Shown here: piece after piece, positions 15,780 through 62,100 of the stretch
How the letters are laid out: every line of letters begins with the position of its first letter
How positions within the stretch are numbered: the first letter of the stretch is position 1
Origin: an uncultured Bacteroidales bacterium
Lineage (GTDB): Bacteria; Bacteroidota; Bacteroidia; Bacteroidales; Bacteroidaceae
DNA length: 64,000 nucleotides
Direction of reading: 5' to 3'
Assembly (NCBI GenBank): GCA_902801325.1
Contig: CADCHQ010000001.1
Span: 1-64,000, forward strand
The notes under the pieces: generated by a model
The model's input: the letters and a program-made list of their open reading frames with translations, nothing else
Database searches by the model: none
What the model was told of the DNA's origin: nothing
Position numbers and translations under genes: made by a program

Positions 15780-18700
15780 ATGAAGAGACTTTTCGGACTT
15801 TTGGTATTAATGGTGTGCATCCATTTTGGCGCACAGGCGCAGAGTAAACTTTACCCGCATCTTTTCGACCTTTCAGAGGTAACTCTTGGTGAAGGAATGT
15901 TCAAGAATGCATTGCTCTTGAACAACGAAGTACTGATGCAGTATGATATGGACCGTCTGCTTACGCCCTACGTTCGACAGGCGGGCATTGATGCAACATG
16001 GGAATCAAAGCATCCCAACTTCCCAAACTGGGGAAGCGGCAATTTCCGTCTTGATGGTCATGTGGGCGGACACTATCTGTCGGCTTTGGCTATGGGCTAT
16101 GCCGCCAGTGGCGACACACGTCTGAAAGAGCGCATGGAATACATGCTCGACGTGATGGAGCGTTGCCAAAAGAAGTTCGATTCGGATAAGACCGGCCTTT
16201 ACGGCTACATTGGCGGCTATCCCAACAATGCCCTGTGGACAACGCTTTATAGTGGCAACATGGACACCTTCAACCAATGTCGAGGCCACGTTCCCTTCTA
16301 TGTGCAGCACAAGGTGTTGGCAGGCCTGCGCGATGCCTATGTCTATGGGGGTAGTGAACGAGCCAAGGAGATGTTCCTGAAGATGTGCGACTGGGTTATA
16401 AACGTCGTTGCAAAGTTCAGTGAATCACAGATGCAATCCATACTCGATACCGAGCATGGAGGTGTCAACGAAACACTAGCCGATGCCTACCTGCTTTCCG
16501 GCGACAAAAAGTATCTCACTGCCGCCAAGCGCTTCAGTCACAAGACGATGGTTGATGGTATGCAGTCGCTCTCCACAACATTCCTCGACAATCGTCACGC
16601 CAATACCCAAGTGCCCAAATACATAGGCTTCGACCGCATCGGACAAATGGACGGAACACGCACATACAAGACTGCCGCATGGAACTTCTGGCGCGATGTC
16701 GTACAGAACCGTACGGCTTGTATTGGCGGAAATAGTGTCGATGAACACTTTATGCCCAGTCAGAACACCGACCGCTACATCAATAATCCCAATGGTCCTG
16801 AGTCGTGCAACACCAATAATATGTTGAAGCTGACCGAAGACCTCTTCCTCGACCGTCCGGGCAATGCCTCTTTAACGGATTTCTACGAGAAGGCCACCTA
16901 CAACCACATACTCTCCACCCAGAACCCAACGACAGGCGGATACGTCTATTTCACCTCCTTGCGTCCCCAGCACTATCGCATGTACAGTCAGGTAAACCAA
17001 GGCATGTGGTGTTGCGTAGGCACAGGCATGGAGAACCACTCGAAGTATGGCGAATTCATCTATGCCCACATTGGCGACACCCTCTTTGTCAACCTATTCA
17101 TCAATAGTGAACTGAAGAACGAAACCTTTGGCATCCGACAGGAGACAAACTTCCCCTACGAGCAGAAGTCCTTGCTCACCATCACCAAGGCTGGAAAGTA
17201 TTGTCTCGCTATCCGCCGTCCTCAGTGGGCAACAGGCAAGGCCTCTACCTATGAATATATACGCAAGGACTGGAAGGTTGGCGAACAAGTGACCATCGAC
17301 CTGCCCATGAGCCTCAGCTATGAGGAATGCCCCCATCTCTCCAACTATATTGCCTTCCGTTATGGTCCCATTCTGCTTGGTGCCATTACTTCTACGGAGA
17401 ACCTCACTGGCCAGTTTGCAGGCGAGGGACGCATGGATCATGCCCCCTCACTCGGTGCTCAGATCAGCCTCACCTCAGCACCCATGCTCATCGGCAATCG
17501 TGCTGACGTGATCGGCAACATCTACCCCATCGACGCCGAGCATCTGAAGTTTGGCATACGACCTGCCTTGCTCAACAGCGAGCGCTGGTCAAACCTTGTG
17601 CTGCAACCTTTCTACACCGTCCATGAGGCACGCTATATGACCTACTTCCAGCAACTGACCGAAGCCGAATGGGAAAAGATTCGTGAGGAGGTGGAAGCCG
17701 AAGAGGCTGCTAAGATGCGACTGGAAGAACGCACGCTTGATGCCATCTCCACAGGCGAACAGCAGAGCGATGCAGGACACGGACGCACAGGCAACTTCGG
17801 CACAGGTTCCTATCAAGGCGAATACTACATCGACGCCCAGAGTGGCAGATGGTTCCAGTACGAACTGGAGACAAAGGGCATAGTGGACAGAGTCTCCCTG
17901 ATGGTTCGCTACACTGGTGCCGACAAGGGTCGCACATGCACCATCTCCATCGATGGAGAAAAGTTCCGTGATGTCACCATTTCTGGTACAACTAATGGTT
18001 TCTTTAATGTAGAATACCCCATTTCATCGAAGTTTTTGACACGTGGAGATGGTTCGGTTAAGGACACCATCACGGTTCGTTTCACAGCCTCTGGCTCTTC
18101 TCCCACACCAGGCGTATACTACATCCGCCTACTGAAGGAGTACGAAGGTTCGAAGCTGAAACACTACACTTTCGTTCCCCAGCAATGGATAAGTGCCGAT
18201 GCCGCTCGCGTCAAGAGTGTAGCATACACCGCCGACGGACGCATTCAGATCAATGGGGCTTCTGGTTCCAACAACATCGCCCTGCAACTCGATACACGCT
18301 ACAGCGACAGTTCTTATGTGCGTCCCGACCAGAACCTACTCCTTGTTCGTGGCACGCAATTGCGCACAGGTAGTGGCTACAGTTATCTTTGGTGGTTCAA
18401 TGGTTGCAACAAGGGTTCACAAGTGGCTCCTACCTACAGCTATCACGCTACAGGTTCCTCCAATCCCTATTACTTTCTATGGGACGTAACGAACAGCGGG
18501 CTTGCCGACTATTGGACGGCTAACGAAGAAGACCATATCCTGATTTCTGCCAACAGCAAACCCATGATCACGTGCTTTGGCTTGACTGCCTCCAGCACTT
18601 CGGGCACGGCCTATATCGATGATATCGATTTCCTCACAGCCCAAGAAGCAGTCGACCGATATCCTGAACTCTCCAAGACACTTGGCCTCACACCCACACG

Positions 18701-18818
18701 CATACTTCCTATTAAGAGAGGAAATGCGAAAGGGAAAAAATATGATCTCTCCGGTCGTCCCGTTGGTAAAGGCTACCAAGGCCTCGTTGTCAGTAATGGA
18801 AGGAAACAACTGAATTAA
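15780..18818 (+). CDS. Beta-L-arabinofuranosidase-like glycoside hydrolase (GH127/DUF1680)
   Basis: 1012 residues with signal peptide ending GAQA. The six-hairpin catalytic domain (about 40-430) has the family features NWGSGNFRLDGHVGGHYLSA and LDTEHGGVNETLADAY. The zinc and nucleophile set known for Bifidobacterium HypBA1 (Glu338, Cys340, Cys417, Cys418) matches Glu341 and Cys343 in PESCNTNNM and Cys411-Cys412 in WCCVGTGMENHSK. A retaining arabinofuranosidase using Cys as nucleophile is therefore predicted. A beta-sandwich follows, then C-terminal carbohydrate-binding-like modules and a short sorting-like tail (KKYDLSGRPVGKGYQGLVV). With the neighbouring PL11 lyase it should attack RG-I: side-chain arabinose here, backbone there. 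The exact GH family (127 or a relative such as 146) needs a tree. Confidence 0.85.
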   Translation: MKRLFGLLVLMVCIHFGAQAQSKLYPHLFDLSEVTLGEGMFKNALLLNNEVLMQYDMDRLLTPYVRQAGIDATWESKHPNFPNWGSGNFRLDGHVGGHYLSALAMGYAASGDTRLKERMEYMLDVMERCQKKFDSDKTGLYGYIGGYPNNALWTTLYSGNMDTFNQCRGHVPFYVQHKVLAGLRDAYVYGGSERAKEMFLKMCDWVINVVAKFSESQMQSILDTEHGGVNETLADAYLLSGDKKYLTAAKRFSHKTMVDGMQSLSTTFLDNRHANTQVPKYIGFDRIGQMDGTRTYKTAAWNFWRDVVQNRTACIGGNSVDEHFMPSQNTDRYINNPNGPESCNTNNMLKLTEDLFLDRPGNASLTDFYEKATYNHILSTQNPTTGGYVYFTSLRPQHYRMYSQVNQGMWCCVGTGMENHSKYGEFIYAHIGDTLFVNLFINSELKNETFGIRQETNFPYEQKSLLTITKAGKYCLAIRRPQWATGKASTYEYIRKDWKVGEQVTIDLPMSLSYEECPHLSNYIAFRYGPILLGAITSTENLTGQFAGEGRMDHAPSLGAQISLTSAPMLIGNRADVIGNIYPIDAEHLKFGIRPALLNSERWSNLVLQPFYTVHEARYMTYFQQLTEAEWEKIREEVEAEEAAKMRLEERTLDAISTGEQQSDAGHGRTGNFGTGSYQGEYYIDAQSGRWFQYELETKGIVDRVSLMVRYTGADKGRTCTISIDGEKFRDVTISGTTNGFFNVEYPISSKFLTRGDGSVKDTITVRFTASGSSPTPGVYYIRLLKEYEGSKLKHYTFVPQQWISADAARVKSVAYTADGRIQINGASGSNNIALQLDTRYSDSSYVRPDQNLLLVRGTQLRTGSGYSYLWWFNGCNKGSQVAPTYSYHATGSSNPYYFLWDVTNSGLADYWTANEEDHILISANSKPMITCFGLTASSTSGTAYIDDIDFLTAQEAVDRYPELSKTLGLTPTRILPIKRGNAKGKKYDLSGRPVGKGYQGLVVSNGRKQLN

Positions 18819-18961
18819 GCGATTTAAGACGACCACCTTTTCGGCTCATCGAAAAACAGATTACCAATCAACGAATATTTGGTTATTATCCAACGATTAT
18901 TTACTTAGCAATCAAGGCACGATGATTGTCAAGTAAATTTCGCAGCATTAATATATCTTCT

Positions 18962-19102
18962 TGCAATGAACCTTAGGCCTTCTGGATTTGTGCCTTAGGT
19001 TCAATTAATTTGCACCTTAGGTTCGATTGTTTTGCACCTTAGGTTCGATTGTTTTGCGCCTTAGGCCTTCCGAATTTGTACCTAAGGTTCGATTCTTCTG
19101 CA
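18962..19102. repeat. 22-nt tandem array, six units, core CCTTAGG
   Basis: CCTTAGG begins at 18971, 18993, 19015, 19037 and 19059, and CCTAAGG at 19081: an exact 22-nt period. Between cores the 15-nt remainder is conserved but not identical (TTCGATTGTTTTGCA type, or CCTTCCGAATTTGTA type). The array ends about 45 nt before the methyltransferase ATG. The reverse complement of the same unit, with the same period, recurs inside that gene at 19963-20057. The rest of the gap 18819-18961 shows no gene. Confidence 0.9.
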
Positions 19103-19147
19103 ACACTATTTGATTTCTAAAGAATAATTTGTACCTTCGCCTTCGGT

Positions 19148-20392
19148 ATGACGAACGAGGAGTTTATAAGCCTACATCGGGAAGAGGATGTCAGACGACT
19201 GGCATTTTCACGTGCCCCTGAGGGAGTGGACTTGAAATGGTGTCTGCAGCAGATAGAAGGCTGGCAGATAGCACGTCGGAAACTGCCGTCATGGGCCGCG
19301 ACAGAAGGCATATGGTATCCCGTTAAACTGTCGATGGAGCAATGCTCGAGTGAGGAGACGGCGCGATACAAGGGAAGCCTCGTGGAAAGACTGATTCCCG
19401 AAGGGCGGACGTCGATGGTGGACCTGACAGGCGGATTGGGAGTGGACTTCTCTCAACTTGCTCCCCTGTTCCGCGAAGCAACCTATGTGGAAGTACAGCC
19501 TCAGCTCATCGAGCTGGCTCAGCATAATTTCCCATTGCTGGGAATTAGAGATGCAACTTGCACTGATAGTTCTTCATTTTTGGACGAGCCAAGCGTAGGC
19601 CTTCGGCCGTCCGATTACTTTACGCTTCACTCTTCACTCTTTTTTATTGATCCAGCCCGTCGCGATGGAGTGGGAAGGAAGACGGTCTCCATTCAAGACT
19701 GTACGCCTAACCTGCTGGAAATGCAGGACGAACTACTCGCAAGGGCACAATGGGTGATGGTGAAACTCTCGCCCATGCTCGACATCACACAGGCATTGCG
19801 TGAACTGCACGGCGTCAGAGAGGTGCATGTAGTGAGTGTGCAAGGCGAGTGCAAGGAGTTGCTGATGGTGATGAAAGCAGGAGCGGAAGGACCTGTAACC
19901 ATGCACTGTGTAAACTTGGGCACTGACGAAGACGAGATAACAATTACACTCCCTGCATCGAACCTATGTTCATCGGCAATCGAACCTAAGGTCATATTGA
20001 ATAAGGCCTTAGGCTCAAACGAATCGAACCTAAGACCTTTTCTTTACGAACCTAATGCCTCTATCCTGAAAGCTGGCGTCTGTGATGTTTTGACCAAGAA
20101 ATACCCCATCGCGAAACTGCATGCGAGGAGCAACTTGTTTGTGAGCAAGCAACTCATTGCCCATTTCCCAGGACGCCGATTCCGCATTATAGGAGTCAGC
20201 GACTTCTCAAAAAAGAACCTGAAAGCCCTAATTGGCGACCTCGACAAGGCAAATCTTACTGTTCGCAACTTCCCAACCAACGTCGAGAAACTGAGGCGAC
20301 AACTGCGTCTGGCTGAGGGAGGCGACACTTATCTTTTTGCCACCACACTGAACGACGGACAGCACGCACTCATCCGATGCGAGAAAGCCTAA
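19148..20392 (+). CDS. Class I SAM-dependent methyltransferase with THUMP-like domain
   Basis: 414 residues, cytosolic. The SAM-binding loop is VDLTGGLGVDF (about residues 96-106), followed by an acidic ribose-contact position in ATYVEVQPQ. FIDPARRDGVGRKTVSI (about 168-184) is the second landmark of this family. The C-terminal THUMP-like part includes LYEPNASILKAG and KLHARSNLFVS. It probably modifies RNA; the substrate is not known. Two stretches look foreign to the family and are made of repeat DNA: about residues 146-167 before FIDPARR, and about residues 270-303 before LYEPNA, the latter encoded by five units of the 22-nt array. Both keep the frame open. Confidence 0.8.
   Translation: MTNEEFISLHREEDVRRLAFSRAPEGVDLKWCLQQIEGWQIARRKLPSWAATEGIWYPVKLSMEQCSSEETARYKGSLVERLIPEGRTSMVDLTGGLGVDFSQLAPLFREATYVEVQPQLIELAQHNFPLLGIRDATCTDSSSFLDEPSVGLRPSDYFTLHSSLFFIDPARRDGVGRKTVSIQDCTPNLLEMQDELLARAQWVMVKLSPMLDITQALRELHGVREVHVVSVQGECKELLMVMKAGAEGPVTMHCVNLGTDEDEITITLPASNLCSSAIEPKVILNKALGSNESNLRPFLYEPNASILKAGVCDVLTKKYPIAKLHARSNLFVSKQLIAHFPGRRFRIIGVSDFSKKNLKALIGDLDKANLTVRNFPTNVEKLRRQLRLAEGGDTYLFATTLNDGQHALIRCEKA
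19583..19650 (+). repeat. Repeat-like insertion in the methyltransferase gene
   Basis: The segment contains a palindromic GGCCTTCGGCC, then CTTCACTCTTCACTC followed by a T run. It encodes SVGLRPSDYFTLHSSLFF immediately before the conserved IDPARRDG, where relatives have a short linker. CTTCACTC-type strings recur near 57330 and 60517-60540. Confidence 0.55.
19963..20057 (+). repeat. 22-nt tandem array inside the methyltransferase coding sequence, five units
   Basis: Cores CCTATGT at 19963, CCTAAGG at 19985, CCTTAGG at 20007, CCTAAGA at 20029 and CCTAATG at 20051 keep an exact 22-nt period. The unit ATCGAACCTAAGG is the reverse complement of the upstream array unit CCTTAGGTTCGAT. Because 22 is not a multiple of three, successive units are read in different frames (SNL, IEPKV, KALGS, SNLRP, YEPNA). 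The last unit lies in the conserved LYEPNA motif. Confidence 0.85.
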
Positions 20393-59420: not shown

Positions 59421-60527
59421 TTAGTATCCCTGGCGGTAACGGTCCTCGTCCTTATCCTCGAGCATGCTGAGGTAGGAGGTGAAGCGGGAGGGTGAGATGC
59501 GCCCTTCGTCGAGGGCTTGGCGGACGGCACAGCCAGGTTCGTGGGTGTGGGTGCAGTCCTGAAATCGGCATTCCTGACCTATCTGGAAGATTTCGCGGAA
59601 ATAGTGGGAGAGTTCCTCGCGTTCGATGTCGAAAGTGCCGAATCCTTTGATGCCTGGGGTGTCGATGACATCGCCTCCCGTGGGCAGACGGAACATCTCG
59701 CTGAAGGTGGTGGTGTGCTGACCGCTGTCGTGCGACTCGCTGATGGCTTCGGTGCGCACGTCGAGGCCTGGGATGAGGTAGTTGAGAAGGGTGCTCTTCC
59801 CTACCCCGCTGTTGCCTGAGAGCAGTGTCACGCGGTCGCGGAGCATGTCTTTCAGTTCGTCGAGGCCTTCGCCACGGAGCACTGAGCAGGGGAGGCACTG
59901 GTAGTGGAGACTCCGATAGAGGGTGATGAGCGACTGCATCTGCCCGTTCTCGGCTTCGGAGTAGAGGTCGGTCTTGTTGAAGAGGAGGATGACGGGCACG
60001 CGATAGGCTTCGGCTACGGCGAGGAAACGGTCGATGAAGGTGGTGCTGACCACGGGGTGGGCAATGGTGACGAGGAGCAGCACCTGGTCGACATTGGCGG
60101 CGAGTATGTGGCTTTGCTTGGAGAGGTTGGAGGCGCGACGGATGATGTAGTTGCGGCGGTCGAGAATGTCAGTGATCAAACCAACACCAGAGAAAGAACT
60201 CTGAACTCTGAACTCTGAACTCTGAACAATACTCACTCTGTCGCCCACTGCCACGGGGTTGGTGGTGCGGAGGCCTCGCAGGCGGAAGTTGCCTCGGACC
60301 TTGCATGAGAAAAGCCGGTCGTCGTCTGTGCGGACGACGTACCAGCTTCCAGTGTTCTTTATGATGACCCCCTCCAATGGAGGACTCACCCCCTGCCCCT
60401 CTCTTGTAGCGAGGGGAGCGCCCCCCACTAAATCTCCCCGAGGGGAGACTTTTAGGGTTTCAAGTGTCTTAGGTTCCCCCTCCCCCTCGGGGGAGGATGG
60501 GAGAGGGGTCAGTTTTTCACTCCTCAT
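59421..60527 (-). CDS. rsgA: Ribosome small-subunit-dependent GTPase A with repeat-encoded insertions
   Basis: 368 residues against about 300-310 for the family. OB-fold N-terminal domain starts at GVIIKNTGSWYVVRTDDDR (about residue 53). The circularly permuted GTPase follows, with G4 LLFNKTDLY, G1 LLSGNSGVGKSTLLNYL and G3 VIDTPGIKGFG, and a zinc site CRFQDCTHTHEPGC. It helps mature 30S subunits. The first 52 residues are encoded by stacked GC-rich palindromic repeats (60365-60510), and there is no start codon between them and the OB fold, so ribosomes must read through them. A second insertion, QSSEFRVQSSF (about residues 101-111), comes from heptanucleotide repeats at 60196-60226. Confidence 0.92.
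   Translation of the reverse strand: MRSEKLTPLPSSPEGEGEPKTLETLKVSPRGDLVGGAPLATREGQGVSPPLEGVIIKNTGSWYVVRTDDDRLFSCKVRGNFRLRGLRTTNPVAVGDRVSIVQSSEFRVQSSFSGVGLITDILDRRNYIIRRASNLSKQSHILAANVDQVLLLVTIAHPVVSTTFIDRFLAVAEAYRVPVILLFNKTDLYSEAENGQMQSLITLYRSLHYQCLPCSVLRGEGLDELKDMLRDRVTLLSGNSGVGKSTLLNYLIPGLDVRTEAISESHDSGQHTTTFSEMFRLPTGGDVIDTPGIKGFGTFDIEREELSHYFREIFQIGQECRFQDCTHTHEPGCAVRQALDEGRISPSRFTSYLSMLEDKDEDRYRQGY
60196..60226 (-). repeat. Heptanucleotide repeat (GAACTCT) inside rsgA
   Basis: Four exact GAACTCT units (60196-60223) plus a partial fifth on the + strand. Unit number changes would shift the rsgA frame, since 7 is not a multiple of three. Confidence 0.85.
60365..60510 (-). repeat. Stacked GC-rich palindromic repeats forming the rsgA N-terminus
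   Basis: Consecutive hairpins: CCTCC-AAT-GGAGG, CCCCTC with GAGGGG, CTCCCC-GA-GGGGAG, and CCTCCCCCTC-GGGGGAGG. The last (60474-60506) matches the coaD repeat at 28134-28166 and is read here on the opposite strand relative to the gene. Confidence 0.85.
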
Positions 60528-61231: not shown

Positions 61232-62023
61232 ATGGTTGATAGGGAACTGATTAACGGCCGTATAGCGGAGTTGGCTGAACAAATGGAGCCTATCGCGCTG
61301 GAGGAGATGTCGGGCATCAAACTCATGAACCGCACGGACACGAAGTTTGTGACTAACAAACAGAAACTGGTGCAGTTGCTGGAGATGGCCCAAGGCCAGT
61401 ATTATTCCCAGCAGATTGGGGAGAGCCGCATAGCAGAATACGTGACCACCTACTGGGACACGGACAACTATCAATACTATCTGGAACACCACAACGGAAG
61501 GGCTCCGAGGCAGAAGGTGCGCGTGAGATCATACATTGGAAGCGACCTAACCTTTCTGGAGGTGAAGACGAAGAACAACCACGGACGGACGAAGAAGAAG
61601 CGCATACAGGTGCCTGGTCAGGAGGTGACGGAGGTGAGAGAGAAGGCCGACGAATTCCTGGAGGGCTTGGTGCATAAGCATCTCGACGACATCCACCCTA
61701 CGGTGCAGAACCACTTCCACCGCATCACGCTGGTGAACTACGGCAAGACGGAACGCCTGACCATAGACTTCGACGTGGAGTTCCACAACTTCGAGACGAA
61801 CAGCAAGAAGGAGACGGGACAACTGGTGATTATAGAACTGAAGCGCGACGGAAATGTCTATAGTCCCATCCTCGACATGCTTAGAGTCCTACGCATTAAA
61901 CCCTCTGGCTTCAGCAAATACTGCATAGGGTCGGTGATGACGAACCGCGGCCTCAAGCACAACATGTTTAAGCAAAAGATGGTGCGCATAAGGAAACTGG
62001 TGGGGGAGAACATCTTTGATTAA
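61232..62023 (+). CDS. VTC-domain protein (polyphosphate polymerase-like)
   Basis: 263 residues. The triphosphate-tunnel fold shows its alternating basic/acidic strands: LMNRTDTKFVTNK, QKVRVRSYIGSDLTFLEVKTKNN, TLVNYGKTERLTIDFDVEFHN and LVIIELKRDG, ending SKYCIGSVM. In yeast the VTC domain polymerises ATP phosphate into polyphosphate; the bacterial substrate is uncertain. It is followed by DUF4956 and DUF2490 genes and a partial secreted protein gene, a set seen together in other Bacteroidota and possibly involved in envelope or polyphosphate biology (inference). Confidence 0.82.
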   Translation: MVDRELINGRIAELAEQMEPIALEEMSGIKLMNRTDTKFVTNKQKLVQLLEMAQGQYYSQQIGESRIAEYVTTYWDTDNYQYYLEHHNGRAPRQKVRVRSYIGSDLTFLEVKTKNNHGRTKKKRIQVPGQEVTEVREKADEFLEGLVHKHLDDIHPTVQNHFHRITLVNYGKTERLTIDFDVEFHNFETNSKKETGQLVIIELKRDGNVYSPILDMLRVLRIKPSGFSKYCIGSVMTNRGLKHNMFKQKMVRIRKLVGENIFD

Positions 62024-62100
62024 TAATCAAAGATGAAGGGTGAAGGATTAAGAATTAAGGATTAAGAATTAAGAGTTAAAACAAAACATTAAATACTATC

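Follow-up and report, generated by a model that had tools for sequence, protein, structure and literature searches.

Locus organization

The window analyzed here, a 64,000-nt stretch of DNA from an uncultured Bacteroidales bacterium (genome G000), holds on its plus strand a GH127-like gene of the beta-L-arabinofuranosidase family (15780 to 18818) and, downstream of it, a gene for a PG_1098-type putative methyltransferase of 414 amino acids (19148 to 20392). The methyltransferase is homologous to PDB 3ll7, itself a putative methyltransferase, and its Pfam matches, PG_1098_Fer and Thump_like, occupy the C-terminal part of the protein. Two tandem arrays with 22-nt units lie at this locus. The upstream one, which has no assigned strand, fills part of the gap between the two genes (18956 to 19102) and carries six exact CCTWAGG cores (18971 to 19087) separated by 15-nt spacers; the other consists of five units inside the methyltransferase gene (19957 to 20062, plus strand) and encodes approximately residues 271 to 305, each of the three frames being used in turn. 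A candidate Bacteroidota-type promoter (19108 to 19134, plus strand), judged by eye from a TTTG and a TAATTTG about 20 nt apart, lies between the upstream array and the methyltransferase start codon, and the sequence from about 19120 up to that codon is conserved in the sister species G101. A second dispersed repeat, TTGGACGAGCCAAGCGTAGGCCTTCGGCCGTCCGATTAC, lies at 19567 to 19643 on the plus strand of the same gene with flanking heptamers such as TTCACTC.

The core positions that an earlier, sequence-only reading had given for both arrays were all correct on recheck. Upstream, positions 18971, 18993, 19015, 19037, 19059, and 19081 all begin an exact CCTWAGG; within the gene only two of the five cores are exact (19963, CCTATGT; 19985, CCTAAGG; 20007, CCTTAGG; 20029, CCTAAGA; 20051, CCTAATG). 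The 22-nt period is real in both arrays, with a shift-22 identity of 0.65 upstream and 0.53 in the gene, compared with no more than 0.37 at any shift apart from 22 and 44; none of 20,000 single-base shuffles matched the shift-22 identity of either array. No further place in the 64-kb window has a shift-22 identity as high as that of the in-gene array. The units of the two arrays had also been described as reverse complements of each other, and an inverted match does exist (57 nt, 77%), but the core is itself palindromic and closer matches are found elsewhere in the genome: the best match of the upstream array (90% over 83 nt) and that of the in-gene array (94% over 35 nt) are both on contig C6. 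Nor is the proposed mirror relation special, given that the sister species keeps the in-gene array and has no upstream one. We conclude that the two arrays are separate members of a genome-wide satellite family and not a pair.

A satellite family on a 22-nt lattice

Across the genome, the pattern CCTWAGG-N15-CCTWAGG (at most one mismatch) occurs 203 times, compared with once for a reversed control. Array statistics were taken from 1.18 Mb of genome stretches, about one-third of the genome; in these, spacings between exact cores fall at 22, 44, 66, and so on up to 198 nt, with almost none off the lattice. When no core is assumed, self-matches of 7-mers show a 14-fold enrichment at period 22, a 10-fold one at period 44, and a separate 16-fold one at period 7. 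A core-agnostic scan gives a density of about 59 22-nt arrays per Mb; most listed arrays have 4 to 12 units, and shorter ones of 2 to 3 units are also present.

The unit consensus is RnRCCTWAGGYnY, and each 15-nt spacer is built of two arms of 7 nt each, which, taken outward from the cores, belong to a small lexicon (TGCAAAT, CCTTATT, CCTTCCG, TTCGATT, GCTTCCG, and others). Arms are interchangeable between units, 95 of 105 spacers are distinct, and the period stays locked at 22 nt; cores of the CCTATGT type, flanked by TCGAA/TTCGA, sit on the same lattice. The dyad symmetry of CCTWAGG arrays is an average property, and the two arms of one spacer, or those across a core, pair no better than permuted arms (z = −1.9 and −2.0). 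On repeat architecture we set aside a CRISPR array, in which repeats of about 24 to 47 nt, unique spacers, and cas genes would be expected; here the core is 7 nt, the 15-nt spacers are modular with a shared lexicon, and dozens of sites are occupied.

Placement relative to genes

By our own hexamer-model gene calls (88.6% coding), 68 of the 70 core-agnostic 22-nt arrays in the 1.18 Mb are intergenic. Convergent gaps hold 29 of these 68, codirectional gaps 34, and divergent gaps 5, compared with 14.5%, 65.7%, and 19.8% of intergenic bases, respectively (convergent excess, p = 2e-8; divergent deficit, p = 0.004). Counted by gap, an array is present in 20/82 convergent, 28/348 codirectional, and 4/98 divergent gaps, and the arrays with at least two exact cores (n = 30) show the same placement pattern. 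Terminator-like hairpins lie outside the array in 9 of the 20 array-bearing convergent gaps and are present in 33 of the 62 array-free ones; with hairpin rates this similar, the arrays are no stand-in for terminators, and we rejected an intrinsic-terminator role. Besides the methyltransferase array, two more coding arrays lie in genes with Pfam domains: one in a 2-hydroxyacid dehydrogenase (residues ∼317 to 346, at the end of the Pfam match) and one in a GH92 protein (residues ∼695 to 720, just past the Pfam match). The candidate at C17:61185-61279, which had at first resembled a further in-gene array, encodes a peptide that looks native for its host gene and was left out of the capture count.

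Sister-species comparison and in-frame capture

At this locus G101 is 88% identical to G000. Its methyltransferase gene carries the same five units, 98/106 identical, a value that is ordinary for this gene, whereas at the orthologous place the upstream array is wholly absent. In G066, a more distant relative (71% identical), both arrays are absent. Ten orthologous intergenic sites compared between G000 and G101 have kept the position of the array with arms swapped, and clean length differences between orthologous intergenic arrays include 22, 44, and 66 nt, in a comparison where G101, like most relatives, is a metagenome assembly in which repeats can collapse.

The sequence-only reading was to fall if the period were lost in relatives or if all orthologues conserved the array-encoded peptide. 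The period is kept in G101, and the peptide is not conserved throughout: among 30 orthologues the segment from NLGTDED to LYEPNA is short and hypervariable; it is rich in indels and less conserved than any other part of the protein. In the G001 orthologue the same segment holds a heptamer array (TCAATCT/TCAATTT), and the other variable linker of the methyltransferase is occupied in G000 by the second dispersed repeat and in G001 and G028 by heptamers. An AlphaFold model (mean pLDDT, 88.7) has low-confidence stretches at residues ∼141 to 160 and 271 to 300, which coincide with these two linkers; the array-encoded residues are in one of them. The array-holding linker, which joins the methyltransferase domain to the ferredoxin-like one, tolerates insertions and is predicted to be disordered.

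A 22-nt unit is not divisible by 3, and the cores are accordingly spread over every frame. The earlier remarks that the array passes through all three frames and that three units equal 66 nt are correct; the suggested growth in threes was not seen, both species having exactly five in-gene units. CCTTAGG gives a stop codon in one frame and CCTAAGG in another, and the stop-free form is present both at 19985 (CCTAAGG as the only option) and at 20007 (CCTTAGG as the only option). The permitted W at both cores has by itself a 1 in 4 chance.

Between the two origins that had been left open, a gene that seeded the array and an array that invaded the gene, the data favor invasion, with about 200 lattice pairs genome-wide and an in-gene array that is present in G101 and absent from G066 and the other orthologues. 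From this distribution we conclude that a tolerant linker took up a family member in-frame before G000 and G101 split and that the gene did not seed the family. The placing of the last unit in the native LYEPNA motif is upheld insofar as it overlaps the YEPNA codons, but GAACCTAATGC(C/T) also occurs in two array-free orthologues (L014 and L023), and the last unit may therefore be plain native sequence.

Other repeats and other genomes

At the place of the second repeat in the methyltransferase gene (19567 to 19643), G101 has a different sequence. This repeat, AAGCGTAGGCCTTCGGCCGTCCGATTAC, is in-frame in the gene and is frequently embedded in heptamer arrays; its sites are on contigs C77, C103, and C76 of G101 and C17, C22, C25, C13, and C23 of G000, and in G101 it makes up 46-47-nt tandem arrays. 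It has a GTAG followed by a GGCC-TTC-GGCC palindrome, and no Y1 transposase was found in G000. Heptamer tandem arrays reach about 82 per Mb in the G000 sample and lie in the window at 60196 to 60227, at 62018 to 62079, and elsewhere; 20 of 97 are in coding sequence, and they show no convergent bias. The coding ones are read in every frame; a PorU-like gene and a 2-hydroxyacid dehydrogenase hold examples.

Within the genus, at least one exact core pair occurs in 18 of 139 genomes, chiefly G000 (126) and G101 (97), compared with 10 genomes for the control core, mostly with a single occurrence. Arrays of 22 or 23 nt in G001 and G017 use other words (e.g., AAGACGCGCGTCTT and GGCACA/TGTGCC). Core-agnostic 22-nt arrays are dyad symmetric in 41/70 cases in G000, 7/10 in G001, and 3/3 in G017, as are 23-nt arrays in 5/7 cases in G001 and 4/5 in G017; the corresponding counts for heptamer arrays are 2/97, 1/25, and 0/13 in G000, G001, and G017. 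Period and symmetry are thus common to these species, and sequence is not, which implies that a simple sequence-specific protein would be insufficient to account for the arrays. The G017 and G001 samples also show an enrichment of arrays with periods of 8, 16, and 23.

Among 392 other Bacteroidales genomes, CCTWAGG was found in 1, compared with 3 for the control core. A three-core scan of 85k species matched Spyradenecus, Kiritimatiellota, Lentisphaeraceae, Treponema, and others, all selected by the pattern itself; since CCTWAGG is no commoner than the control core outside the genus, we read these matches as independent and do not retain a cross-phylum CCTWAGG system. A viral origin was likewise dropped, the nine viral-contig matches being mostly simple 11-mer or identical-unit repeats. 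One set of these genomic matches (L128-L202, “Candidatus Spyradenecus faecavium”) is a stereotyped element on dozens of contigs, in the order hairpin, AATAAGTnnnnatg, and then three to four 22-nt units from CCTTAAGGG; the hairpin arms differ between copies yet stay complementary, and the whole resembles a composite mobile or structured element.

Relation to known repeat systems

Subirana and Messeguer describe bacterial satellites of constant size and variable sequence (20 to 23 nt in many groups, 52 nt in Firmicutes) that form species-specific, non-coding families with short shared words and partial conservation between strains, and they remark that ∼21 nt equals two helical turns (PMC8161180). 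The roles proposed there are small RNAs or the binding of a nucleoid protein, one that polymerizes on DNA (PMC8161180). The 22-nt family fits this class as they describe it: the unit is near two turns and of constant size, not a multiple of 3 (spacings of 22, 44, 66, etc., with a peak at 22); several families share a genome, and a short core is common to arrays within a genome; words are species specific and size is common to species, G001 and G017 having other words; most listed arrays reach the size set for the class, at least four repeats with at least 60% of equal length; and position and length are only partly conserved between strains. The class is described as non-coding; here 68 of 70 arrays are intergenic, yet the methyltransferase array is coding and two more lie in genes with Pfam domains. 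Relative to the published descriptions of that class, on which the comparison rests, what our arrays add, and what is new here, is dyad symmetry, enrichment between convergent genes, whole-unit differences between sister species, and the capture of an array as coding sequence.

Other systems share some of these features. Heptamer direct repeats are found in Beggiatoaceae, cyanobacteria, and some Bacteroidetes (PMC4679880), and like our arrays they are short tandem repeats abundant in intergenic DNA, but their 7-nt unit lacks dyad symmetry and in this genome they form a class separate from the 22-nt arrays. The capture within a gene has a possible parallel in the palindromic elements of Rickettsia. 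According to Ogata et al. in 2000, these reportedly lie in-frame in ordinary protein genes and are translated in a tolerant surface or linker region; they are said to be single and of about 100 to 150 nt, unlike the tandem array found here, whose 22-nt unit cannot hold one frame.

Origin and maintenance of the arrays

A single account would probably cover these observations together: a dispersed, dyad-symmetric 22-nt family with whole-unit turnover, in-frame capture, slippage, and a putative dyad-binding protein. The family is made up of short satellites that keep strictly to the 22-nt lattice, lie for the most part in gaps at gene 3′ ends, convergent gaps above all, and turn over in whole units. 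Units may be gained and lost through slippage at the repeated cores or through unequal recombination there, and new sites may be seeded by short-patch copying between sites. In coding sequence a change of one unit would shift the frame, and the number of units would for that reason have frozen once the array was coding. Less certainly, the intergenic lattice may be kept by a putative dimeric DNA-binding or nucleoid protein seated on dyads about every two helical turns. The molecular function may lie in a protein lattice phased every two turns, or the family may be a neutral satellite.

That second option, a neutral or selfish satellite that would owe its 22-nt period to the replication or recombination machinery (hairpin-assisted slippage of palindromic units) and whose arrays would gather at gene 3′ ends because they do least harm there, is a serious possibility that we nevertheless consider less likely than not. 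It agrees with the fast turnover of units and arms at persisting sites, the species-specific words, the lack of a known common molecular partner, and the depletion of arrays in coding sequence and in divergent (promoter) gaps; taken alone, it leaves unexplained why a 22-23 period comes with dyad symmetry in each of three species when symmetry and convergent bias are both missing from the 7- and 8-nt arrays of those genomes. We regard as improbable a role at the RNA level, in which hairpins of transcribed arrays end transcription both ways or protect mRNA 3′ ends. For both strands, the folding energy of the arrays is lower than that of shuffled sequences (mean z = −2.4 and −2.9), which keeps such a role in play, palindromes act on either strand as would suit convergent genes, and transcription has been described for related 52-nt satellites in B. 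coagulans (PMC8625621); but codirectional gaps show no sense-strand bias in folding, separate terminator-like hairpins are about equally frequent with and without arrays, the locus has no Rfam match, and arms are not co-selected for pairing, the permutation scores for hairpin covariation lying in the wrong direction.

REP/BIME elements of Enterobacteria and Pseudomonas, which are palindromic, intergenic, often between convergent genes, present in >100 copies, and tandem (PMC2817692, PMC1525189), resemble our arrays as high-copy extragenic palindromes in tandem mosaics, and the 22-nt arrays are indeed extragenic and enriched in convergent gaps. Spread of such elements by a RAYT transposase is nonetheless very unlikely here: a search that recovered E. 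coli and other controls gave no Y1_Tnp (PF01797) match in this 94.7%-complete genome, the unit consensus lacks a GTAG/CGTC tag, and the units are strict direct tandems with freely swapping arms. We give equally little credence to the idea that native LYEPNA codons seeded the in-gene array and that the upstream array was copied from it. The last unit is in register with GAACCTAATGCC, a 1 in 22 coincidence, and similar inverted arrays lie 0.9 kb apart; against this stand the ∼200 lattice pairs elsewhere in the genome, the greater similarity of each array to arrays on other contigs than to its neighbor, and the sister species without the upstream array. Seeding confined to the methyltransferase gene is possible, as the YEPNA register leaves room for a homology-guided array start at that site.

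The joint account may extend further, to 22/23-nt satellites as a general class of dyad-symmetric lattices in which a putative shared protein reads spacing and twofold symmetry in place of a fixed word, convergent gene ends are the site of use, and capture in genes is a by-product; this broader version is speculative, and we think it rather unlikely as a whole.

Implications

Constant-size satellites have been described as enigmatic, with the length of the unit fixed and its sequence free, and this locus adds testable properties to them. Here a satellite array that lies in an ordinary gene is translated in each of the three frames. Judging from the sister species, coding use seems to freeze the number of units while intergenic arrays keep changing. 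The methyltransferase linker represents one route from non-coding repeats to new peptide in protein linkers.
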